Both the position numbers and the translations under genes were made by a program. Shown one piece after another: positions 19,003-21,517 of a stretch of 64,000 nucleotides of DNA (positions within the stretch are counted from its first letter, which is position 1; each line of letters begins with the position of its first letter). Source of the DNA: Candidatus Rokuibacteriota bacterium (GTDB lineage: Bacteria > Methylomirabilota > Methylomirabilia > Rokubacteriales > CSP1-6); assembly GCA_016188005.1 (NCBI GenBank), contig JACPIQ010000104.1:1-64000 (forward strand), read 5' to 3'. A model generated the notes under the pieces. The model was not told where the DNA came from. It searched no databases and saw nothing but the letters and a program-made list of their open reading frames with translations.

Positions 19003-19533
19003 CTACCGGAGCGTGAGGCCGGCATCCTCGGAGAACTCGATCAGCAGCGCCTGCCCCGGCTTGATCTCCACGTCCTTCTCGAGCGTGAAGCGGCGCGGCC
19101 GGTCCTGGTCGCGGTCGGCGTGGCCGTCGGCGAGGGTGACCTGGAGCCGGCGGCCGCCGGGAGCGACCGGGACTTCCTCGTAGGCGAAGGTGGGGCCGTC
19201 GCCGCGGAGGCCGCCAGGCGAATAGCTCTTCCGGAGCCGGGGTTGGCCGTCCACCGACGAGCGCAGGAAGGCCCGGAGGTCGTCGGCGTAGAAGAAGTAG
19301 ACGACGGCGGCGAAGAGTGGCGGCTGGAGGAGGGTCAGGATCAGCGTGTCGAGGCGGTGCTGCCGCGTCTCGGCGTTCCAGCCGAAACAGGCGGTGAGGA
19401 GCGTGTCGGCCCACGGCCCCATGCCGGGACCCACGAGCAGGAAGGCCACGGTCAGGGCCCCGAGGCCGAACATGGCCAGGAGCAGACAGGGCGCGAACAG
19501 CCGGTGGGTGAAGAACTCCGTCGGCGTCGTCAT
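19003..19533 (-). CDS. Membrane protein of unknown function
   Basis: A 176-residue protein with two hydrophobic segments (about residues 9-34 and 54-73) and a C-terminal soluble domain rich in beta-strand-like sequence. I do not recognise a family. The start MTTPTEFF has GGGAGGGAGAG directly ahead. It is monocistronic; the perfect 26-bp palindrome at 19552-19577 begins 18 bases upstream of its ATG and could be an operator for it. Confidence 0.65.
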   Translation of the reverse strand: MTTPTEFFTHRLFAPCLLLAMFGLGALTVAFLLVGPGMGPWADTLLTACFGWNAETRQHRLDTLILTLLQPPLFAAVVYFFYADDLRAFLRSSVDGQPRLRKSYSPGGLRGDGPTFAYEEVPVAPGGRRLQVTLADGHADRDQDRPRRFTLEKDVEIKPGQALLIEFSEDAGLTLR

Positions 19534-19551: not shown

Positions 19552-19577
19552 CCAGTGTGCCCCCGGGGGCACACTGG
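19552..19577. promoter_or_regulatory. 26-bp perfect palindrome (possible operator)
   Basis: CCAGTGTGCCCCC is followed directly by its exact reverse complement, with no loop. It lies in the 5' region of the minus-strand membrane protein and at the start of a 418-base gap before the radical SAM gene. It could bind a dimeric repressor. A zero-loop hairpin is a poor terminator, so an operator is favoured. Confidence 0.4.
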
Positions 19578-19697
19578 CCGTTATGACGGAGATCATCCTC
19601 GCCCGGCGCGGGCACCCGGGCTTCGCCACGCCCGCCCCCGCCGGAAGCTCGGGTGGCGCGACCTACCTCGGGCGATTCGTGAGCCCGTCCGTTGACG

Positions 19698-19838
19698 GCC
19701 GGGGGGGGAGGTCCTCCCCGTGGAACCGTGGCTTCTGCGCGCTGCCGGAGCCGGCGCCCTCGATCTCGTGGCTCGTTCCGTGGCGTGGCAGCGGGTGGCG
19801 ACTCAGCGTGTTCCGCGGGGAGGACCTCCCGCCCCGGC
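19698..19838. repeat. 141-bp element bounded by 29-bp inverted repeats
   Basis: The left arm (19698-19726) and right arm (19810-19838) are reverse complements at 27 of 29 positions. Each contains an internal near-palindrome, GGGAGG-T/A-CCTCCC. Within the 83-base spacer the arms continue to pair loosely (GCTGCC on both sides). It could be a MITE-like insertion, or a long hairpin in the leader of the radical SAM gene. No clear target-site duplication was seen. Confidence 0.55.
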
Positions 19839-19865
19839 AGCGCGTCGGCAGGAGCTGGCAATTCC

Positions 19866-19894
19866 TTGCGTTGGGGCGGGGGGTCGGGTATGAT
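19866..19894 (+). promoter_or_regulatory. Possible sigma70-type promoter for the radical SAM gene
   Basis: A -35-like TTGCGT at 19866-19871 and a -10-like TATGAT at 19889-19894 are separated by 17 bases. The predicted transcript would start about 50 bases before the GTG at 19952. If used, the transcript starts downstream of the 141-bp inverted-repeat element. Confidence 0.4.
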
Positions 19895-19951: not shown

Positions 19952-21517
19952 GTGAAGATCTGCCTGATCGCGCCGAGGAATCCCGAGTCCTTCTGGACCT
20001 TCGACCGTATCCTGCCGAGCCTCGGGAAGCGCTGTGCCTTCCCGAACCTCTCGCTGCCCACGGTGGCGGCGCTCACGCCGCCGGGTCACGAGATCGTCTG
20101 CTGCGACGAGAACGTCGAGCCCATCGACTGGGACACTGACGCCGACATCGTGGGGATCACCGGCTACGTGGTCCACAAGACGCGCATGTTCCAGATCATC
20201 GAGGAGTTCCGCCGGCGCGGGAAGTTCGTGGTGGCCGGCGGACCCTTCGCCTCGCTCTGCCCCGAGGAGTTGCGCGGGCGCGTGGACGTGCTCTTCGTGG
20301 ACGAGGCCGAGTACACCTGGCCGCAGTTCATCCGGGACTTCGAGGCGGGCTCGTGGCAGGCGGAGTACCGGCAGGACGAGAAGCCGAGCATGCTGGACTC
20401 GCCGCTGCCGCGCTTCGATCTCCTCAAGGTCGGGCGCTACCGCAGCATGGCCATCCAGTTCGCCCGCGGCTGCCCCTTCAACTGCGACTTCTGCGACATC
20501 ATCGTCATGTACGGCCGCCGCCCCCGGACCAAGTCGGTCGCGCAGGTCATGACCGAGGTGGGGGAGATCCACCGGCTCGGGGTGCGGAACATCTTCGTCG
20601 TGGACGACAACTTCATCGGCAACAAGAAAGAAGCCAAGAGGCTCCTCATCGCCCTCGCCGAATGGCAGACCGCCCGCGGGTACCCCGTGGAGTTCATGAC
20701 CGAGGTATCGCTGAACGTGGCGCAGGACGACGAGCTGCTGGCCCTCATGAAGCGGGCCCACTTCGCGACCATCTTCGTGGGCATCGAGTCTCCGCGCAAG
20801 GCGAGCCTCGAGTCCACCGGGAAGACCCAGAACATGCGGGAGGACATCCTCACCTCGGTCCACCGCATCCAGGCCGCCGGCATCGAGGTCATGGCCGGCA
20901 TGATCGTCGGGTTCGACGGCGACGACGCGGAGATCTTCGAGGAGCAGTTCCGCTTCATCCAGGACGCCCGCATCCCCATCTCCATGACGGGCATGCTCAA
21001 CGCGGTGCCGAAGACTCCGCTCTACGACCGGCTCAAGAAGGCGGGGCGCCTCATCGCCGAGTCTGTGGGCGACCAGTTCGTCTTCACCAACATCGTGCCG
21101 AAGGGGATGTCGCGGCTCGAGCTGTACGAGGGGTACCGGCGGCTCCTCGAGCGGCTCTACGACTACGGCAACTACCGCCGCCGCTCCATGGCGCTGATCC
21201 TGGGGCGGGGGGCGCGCGACGGCTCCCGGCTCGTGGCGGCGCGCGGGGACCTGGCGCTCTTCCTCCGGATCGTCTGGGCCTGCGTGCTCAACGCCTCGCC
21301 CCGGCGCGCCTGGCTGACGGTGTCGATGATCCTCGAGACCGCTCTCCGGCGTCCGCGCCGCGTCCGTGACGCCGTGACGCTGGCGCTGATGCACAAGCAC
21401 CTCTACGAGTACTCCCGCCACACGGCCACGCGGCTGGAGGCGCTGATCCGCGAGCTCCGGGAGCTGCCGGCCGCGGGGCTTCTGCCCCTGGCCGAGGCGA
21501 AGCCCGACCCCTCGTAG
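19952..21517 (+). CDS. B12-binding domain radical SAM protein (DUF4070 / HpnP-like family)
   Basis: A 521-residue class B radical SAM enzyme. An N-terminal cobalamin-binding domain covers about residues 1-140 and lacks the His of the DxHxxG motif, as is usual in this group. The radical SAM core has CPFNCDFC (C-x3-C-x2-C) near residue 170 and VVDDNFIGNKKEAKRLL. A C-terminal DUF4070-like region follows. Hopanoid C-2 methylase HpnP belongs to this family, but many members have other or unknown substrates. The GTG start is chosen because the B12 domain begins there (VKICLIAPRNPESFW). Confidence 0.85.
   Translation: MKICLIAPRNPESFWTFDRILPSLGKRCAFPNLSLPTVAALTPPGHEIVCCDENVEPIDWDTDADIVGITGYVVHKTRMFQIIEEFRRRGKFVVAGGPFASLCPEELRGRVDVLFVDEAEYTWPQFIRDFEAGSWQAEYRQDEKPSMLDSPLPRFDLLKVGRYRSMAIQFARGCPFNCDFCDIIVMYGRRPRTKSVAQVMTEVGEIHRLGVRNIFVVDDNFIGNKKEAKRLLIALAEWQTARGYPVEFMTEVSLNVAQDDELLALMKRAHFATIFVGIESPRKASLESTGKTQNMREDILTSVHRIQAAGIEVMAGMIVGFDGDDAEIFEEQFRFIQDARIPISMTGMLNAVPKTPLYDRLKKAGRLIAESVGDQFVFTNIVPKGMSRLELYEGYRRLLERLYDYGNYRRRSMALILGRGARDGSRLVAARGDLALFLRIVWACVLNASPRRAWLTVSMILETALRRPRRVRDAVTLALMHKHLYEYSRHTATRLEALIRELRELPAAGLLPLAEAKPDPS

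Follow-up and report, generated by a model that had tools for sequence, protein, structure and literature searches.

The window, a stretch of 64,000 nucleotides at the start of contig JACPIQ010000104.1 from a Candidatus Rokuibacteriota genome (assembly GCA_016188005.1, here G000), harbors an inverted-repeat element between two divergently oriented genes, one of which encodes a B12-binding-like/radical SAM/DUF4070 protein. The element and its context comprise the following features:

19003-19533, minus strand: divergent upstream gene, 176 aa, with no Pfam match
19688-19850, plus strand: whole structured unit, full-length match to covariance model R2 (104.6 bits, E 3.5e-17, model positions 1-163)
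19698-19726, plus strand: left (5′) inner arm, GCCGGGGGGGGAGGTCCTCCCCGTGGAAC, pairing with 19810-19838 and co-varying across copies
19722-19814, plus strand: conserved core from GGAAC to GTTCC, 93 nt, its length within ±1-2 in nearly all copies of the genus
19722-19739, plus strand: most conserved block, GGAACCGTGGCTTCTGCG (GACCCGTRKCTTCTGG in distant genera)
19766-19772, plus strand: second conserved block, TCGTGGC
19805-19814, plus strand: third conserved block, AGCGTGTTCC (AGCGTGGTC in distant genera)
19810-19838, plus strand: right (3′) inner arm, GTTCCGCGGGGAGGACCTCCCGCCCCGGC, with three mirrored double changes relative to the G002 ortholog
19866-19894, plus strand: promoter-like TTGCGT-17-TATGAT of the radical SAM gene, located by eye; context, not part of the element
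19952-21517, plus strand: B12-binding-like/radical SAM/DUF4070 protein gene, downstream context

A repeat search recovers the arms described in the initial annotation (29 nt each, at 19698-19726 and 19810-19838, with 27 of 29 positions paired (93%) and 83 nt between them), and the near-palindrome GGGAGG-W-CCTCCC reported inside each arm is seen in both. The excess of structure claimed for this region also holds: folded as RNA, the 157 nt reach −107.9 kcal/mol on the plus strand and −95.2 kcal/mol on the minus strand, far below dinucleotide shuffles (z = −5.75 and −6.30, respectively), none of 200 of which folds as well. The structured unit is slightly larger than the 19698-19838 originally delimited, since the covariance-model match extends over 19688-19850; on the opposite strand the same interval scores only 20.7 bits with R2. 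Within the fold, the third conserved block is the 3′ partner of the first, with a bulged U and an invariant U-G pair. Counted with its CTAG-flanked ends, the mobile element of the best-preserved relatives measures about 219 bp; in the window copy these ends have decayed and no IS630-type ends are visible. Rfam yields no match in the window at gathering scores, nor around the element up to an E-value of 10. The isolated 14-mer GGGGAGGWCCTCCC is not enriched genome-wide over its reversed control, so the palindrome of the arms does not by itself constitute a genome-wide site.

The promoter-like block at 19866-19894 is nearly identical in three species and receives no score in a strict consensus promoter scan; its position downstream of the element places the latter outside the leader of the radical SAM gene. 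Relative to the orthologous copy in the congener G002, arm positions 10, 12 and 15 have changed on both sides together, and the only other arm differences, a G-G mismatch and a U-G wobble, both lie in the window copy. A second congener, G001, has the same flanks (89% identity over the downstream 185 nt, 77% over an upstream 103-nt stretch and 91% over the downstream 1 kb) without the element. In its stead G001 shows some 80 unrelated nt and a scrambled junction, with no covariance-model match at this locus (L185), and it keeps the radical SAM gene and the promoter-like block though lacking the element. The window copy is atypical, standing between divergent genes instead of at a gene end and not being fixed in the genus. 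Two other features lie nearby: a different short repeat (CGGGCACCCGGGCTTCGCCACGCCCGCCCCCGCCGGAA..., 19599-19677) that has many matches in both congeners, G001 and G002, with local multiplication beside the element in the latter, and a perfect 26-bp palindrome (CCAGTGTGCCCCCGGGGGCACACTGG, 19552-19577), just upstream of the divergent gene start, that is a possible operator.

The element is not a single-copy feature. In its own genome (5.37 Mb in 140 contigs, 98% complete, 4.7% contamination) a 157-base query matches 24 places with E<1e-6, at 70-89% identity and partial ones included, and dispersed copies number about 25. The core is of constant length in nearly all core-aligned copies (93 nt, or 94 with one further base), and its first 18 nt (GGAACCGTGGCTTCTGCG) hardly vary. 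The arms extend about 60 nt outward from the core and terminate in CTAGTGTCCTGTCTC in the best-preserved copies; partial and deleted copies are also present. Across the genome collection, the pattern is carried by Candidatus Rokubacteria/Methylomirabilota assemblies and by one Pseudomonas koreensis sequence, which we rejected as a chance match because the covariance model does not support it. Model R1, derived from an alignment of 56 copies from ten genomes (A1), matches 29 of 60 genomes of the order, and within the window's family R2 matches 38 of 57 genomes, compared with none of 38 in other families of the order and class. Carrier genomes hold from 1 to 30 or more copies, R2 copy counts being lower bounds with 31 candidates scored per genome, and the unpaired core sequence is conserved across 15 genera. 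Phage and plasmid collections contain no match to the element, and a limited search of the open-access literature found no description of such an element in Rokubacteria. This previously uncatalogued repeat family is confined to a single family of Candidatus Rokubacteria, and it adds a structured repeat family to an uncultured lineage that is widespread in soil and groundwater.

Compensatory changes in relatives are abundant, beyond both shuffled and slid controls. Of the 38 pairs in the A1 consensus hairpin, 30 have undergone double compensatory change; 96.0% of its cells are paired, against 84.1% in shuffles, and its 228 double-change cells (62 in shuffled alignments) are reached in none of 500 shuffles. 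The signal is lost when the partner is slid by 1 to 3 columns. In an alignment of 32 diverse copies (A4), biased towards structure by having been fitted to the model, double-change cells number 244 (61 when shuffled) and the covariation score is 0.594 against 0.143. The initial annotation had named a single copy without compensatory changes as the outcome that would speak against it; further copies and compensatory changes are both present. The pairs that close the core switch jointly, from GGAAC/GTTCC in the window's genus to GGACC/GGTCC in genus g19 and GGGGC/GCCCC in L067, and matches in distant genera have GACCCGTRKCTTCTGG...AGCGTGGTC in common, set within perfect but unrelated stems. The long stem thus differs from copy to copy yet stays self-complementary, closed on the conserved internal loop CCCGU RK CUUCUG / AGCG-U-GG.

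Several copies are orthologous across genera; for example, L151, L154 and L163 (g9), L156 (g4) and L162 (g14) share an MFS gene as neighbor, L152 and L158 precede moeA, and L146 and L161 are located at pilB. At these loci the stems differ by mirrored changes (L151 versus L154 and others), so that the two arms change in step and the hairpin survives. Over the inner 30 nt, arms of different copies match less well than the two arms within a copy (p 2.5e-6); over the outer 30 nt the within-copy match is no better and is near random. The transposon ends thus decay, and the inner hairpin persists.

Mismatches in the stem distinguish the two strands. Read on the core strand, G-U mismatches outnumber A-C mismatches by 36 to 7 in the window's genus and by 29 to 4 in g19 and g22, under a scoring that treats both kinds alike. 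Distant copies give 37 to 21 in a first set and 83 to 40 in a larger set that largely contains the first; the copies being related, none of these counts represents independent events and the associated p-values are inexact. The excess of G-U over A-C indicates that folding takes place on the strand bearing the core (plus in the window). The invariant U-G pair is found on this strand too, as are, in distant genera, tandem GA/GA mismatches next to the clamp, which read TC/TC on the other strand. We take this to mean that the core-strand molecule is under constraint, RNA being the simplest case; a hairpin of single-stranded DNA would also suit both the G-U/A-C asymmetry and the tandem GA mismatches.

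The ends of the best-preserved copies connect the family to IS630-type transposition. Elements ended by CTAGTGTCCTGTCTC occur 11 times in 99 relatives, against none for the reversed pattern. A full-length copy in G002 (L045) has exact CTAGTGTCCTGTCTC ends on both sides, with CTAG at both, and takes the place of the TAG stop codon in a histidine kinase gene. Elements of about 1.15 kb in G020 (L095) and G004 (L097) combine the same CTAGTGTCCTGTCTC ends with a DDE_3 transposase (PF13358); in both, the transposase reading frame reaches the terminal repeat and ends in ...TGH, its stop being the repeat's own TAG. Copies of the window's genus accordingly have their ends in common with an IS630-family element, and in this genus and its near relatives the hairpin lies inside IS630-type ends at CTAG targets that are often the stop codon itself. 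Thirteen genes of the window's genus stop exactly at an element end, eight of them with TAG, against a background of 17 of 63. In distant genera, no IS630 ends were seen in the copies examined. At an orthologous site in two species (L012 1492-1670 and L078 1495-1698) the core is flipped between the arms, showing that inversion happens; we read this as a putatively invertible or recombination-flipped spacer.

A search for an empty site corresponding to L045 returned no empty ortholog, only paralogous histidine kinases, and the flanks of L041 have no clear orthologous site in G001 or G002. The genome of the window encodes one IS630 transposase, without matching ends, and two candidate autonomous elements (L056, L055) were rejected, as they carry only other short repeats. 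Unrelated short palindromic elements with CTAGTGTCCTGTCTC ends are present in other genera and families of the class (L092, L094, L099, L096), so this IS630 type mobilizes several MITE families. The MITE proposed in the initial annotation is hence upheld for the spread of the element in the window's genus and near relatives; transposition alone does not explain the copies, given their in-place conservation and covariation across genera.

Copies lie predominantly at gene ends. Among 60 copies from all groups, the neighboring genes are convergent in 19, tandem in 35 and divergent in 6, with gene boundaries that are approximate because genes were called with a simple codon-bias caller. Of 57 distant copies with both neighbors, 50 have a 3′-side gene running against the core (p 4e-9), and that gene's stop codon mostly lies no more than about 25 nt from the stem or within the stem's outer end. 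Convergent genes that both carry an element have the two arranged as an inverted pair (L223, L082, L085, L072). The host genes, named by reading translations and not by family search, are unrelated and include ftsH, ftsZ, pilB, an RNase E/G-like gene, livH and oppF. Placement close behind stops and rarely between divergent genes is that of a REP-like element, the window copy excepted, and in this respect the REP-like element suggested in the initial annotation stands. Membership in the RAYT/REP system was rejected, since RAYT (PF01797) is absent from the window's own genome; within the family 11 of 57 genomes encode it, in a distribution that does not follow that of the element.

The strand under constraint in distant genera is the antisense strand of the gene whose stop codon the element adjoins, an orientation that does not fit a simple mRNA 3′-UTR hairpin. 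An intrinsic terminator was also rejected, as no U-tract follows the hairpin. Promoter signal upstream of the core is no better than in shuffles. The placement, almost always at the very ends of genes, points to a real job in RNA or single-stranded DNA. In the window's own genome, one copy (L005, C30:164-328) separates the ends of two convergent genes whose C-terminal sequences are nearly identical (..CDGQHKKVEFKA and ..KKIEFKS), and both stops are the element's TAG.

These properties invite comparison with known systems. The attC sites of integrons conserve structure over sequence, adjoin the stop codon and are folded from the strand antisense to the gene. The element resembles attC in all three respects, and unlike attC it has no attC-type boxes at its base (no conserved columns corresponding to RYYYAAC or GTTRRRY at the stem base in A1 and A4) and does not occur in cassette arrays. 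RUP of Streptococcus pneumoniae, a MITE presumably mobilized by IS630-Spn1, and further small MITEs of bacteria are, as here, short intergenic repeats with IS630-family ends, a TA-containing target and a stable hairpin transcript, the last being putative in the present case (PMC2229807). In contrast to RUP, the inner hairpin and core described here are conserved in genera showing no IS630 ends, and the hairpin co-varies in place and outlasts the transposon ends. ERIC, which acts on mRNA stability in an orientation-dependent manner, and Correia/NEMIS are likewise palindromic repeats of 100-200 bp with a terminal TA that form a long RNA stem-loop by pairing of the 5′ and 3′ ends (PMC2229807). 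The present element has no sequence relation to them (no Rfam match), and it differs in its copy-specific stems around a fixed core and in its fixed orientation at stop codons in distant genera. REP/BIME elements are also dispersed hairpins close behind stops, rare in divergent regions and often in inverted pairs, and REPs that lie no further than 15 nt from a stop codon can reduce translation (PMC12306157). Unlike these, the element is four times longer, has a conserved internal loop and belongs to a genome without RAYT. The comparisons with RUP, ERIC and REP are functional analogies only.

Taken together, the sequence comparisons indicate that the family is probably an ancient structured-RNA repeat of REP/ERIC type at gene ends that has been secondarily mobilized as a MITE. 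We infer a role at gene ends, in the manner of REP and ERIC, where the element would work as a folded RNA, serving as a barrier or recognition site; such a barrier may shape transcript 3′ ends or block transcription entering the gene from its 3′ side. In the window's clade, IS630-type ends would have taken over the hairpin and carried it, as a MITE, into CTAG stop codons, so that many present copies, the window copy included, would have been placed by transposition and then retained or lost case by case. Blocking transcription from the 3′ side would be one way to reconcile the antisense orientation, and a strand-specific DNA hairpin another.

The same observations were weighed against other explanations. 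That the family is a plain MITE, a non-autonomous IS630 derivative devoid of host function whose arms are matched by palindrome correction (template switching) and recent amplification, appears unlikely. The IS630-type ends and CTAG/TA targets, the autonomous elements with the same ends in relatives, the flipped core of L012/L078, presence and absence between congeners at the window locus and the partial or deleted copies all agree with it, but it leaves unaccounted for an inner hairpin still matched where the outer ends are near-random, an unpaired core conserved across 15 genera, orthologous copies that different genera retain at the same locus with compensatory change, the G-U over A-C asymmetry and distant-genus copies in which no IS630 ends were seen. 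We consider it improbable that the copies are trans-acting small RNA genes, each transcribing the core strand from its own promoter. In its favor, constraint falls on the core strand irrespective of the direction of the neighboring gene, and the internal loop is structured, with tandem GA, bulged U and invariant U-G; promoter-like enrichment upstream is nevertheless absent, and up to 30 copies per genome with tight stop-codon placement would be unusual for small RNA genes.

A strand-specific single-stranded DNA hairpin, acting as an attC-like or HUH-type recombination or mobility site that inserts at gene 3′ ends in fixed orientation, would explain the antisense folded strand at stops, in the manner of the bottom strand of integron attC, and G-T and tandem GA mismatches are tolerated in DNA hairpins too. 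Yet the stem base bears no conserved boxes, the conserved part being the interior, the neighbors are housekeeping genes (ftsH, ftsZ, pilB, RNase E/G) and Y1/HUH transposases are absent from G000 and from most carriers, making this explanation quite unlikely. Hardly any credence attaches to a cis-regulatory, riboswitch-like leader of the B12/radical SAM gene, one form of the regulatory RNA entertained in the initial annotation. The position upstream of the gene and the strong fold prompted it; the promoter-like block between element and gene and the G001 locus, where gene and promoter persist without the element, led us to reject it, and other copies adjoin unrelated genes and Rfam offers no match.

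A bolder reading, which we advance tentatively and regard as doubtful, is that the family constitutes a new class of elements, folded on one specific strand (as RNA or single-stranded DNA), that would mark gene 3′ ends throughout the family and that one clade made transposon-borne. Its functional strand would face the gene (antisense) at the stop, one per gene even between convergent genes, and might, for example, stop transcription entering the gene from behind. Were the antisense placement at stop codons functional, it would represent a form of gene 3′-end protection without description for REP or ERIC in the literature searched. The family provides a clean test case for the old question of whether palindromic repeats in bacteria represent selfish DNA or RNA with a function, since copy-specific covariation, strand asymmetry, in-place inheritance and the decay of transposon ends can be told apart here. 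Two species have a further repeat of about 185 bp, GGCCGGTCAAAAAG...CCAGATGCAAGGCGGCG...CCGCAGATGGGCCTTTTT (L078 1720-1904 and L017 1700-1885), immediately outside two copies of the element; its ends resemble a hairpin followed by T5.
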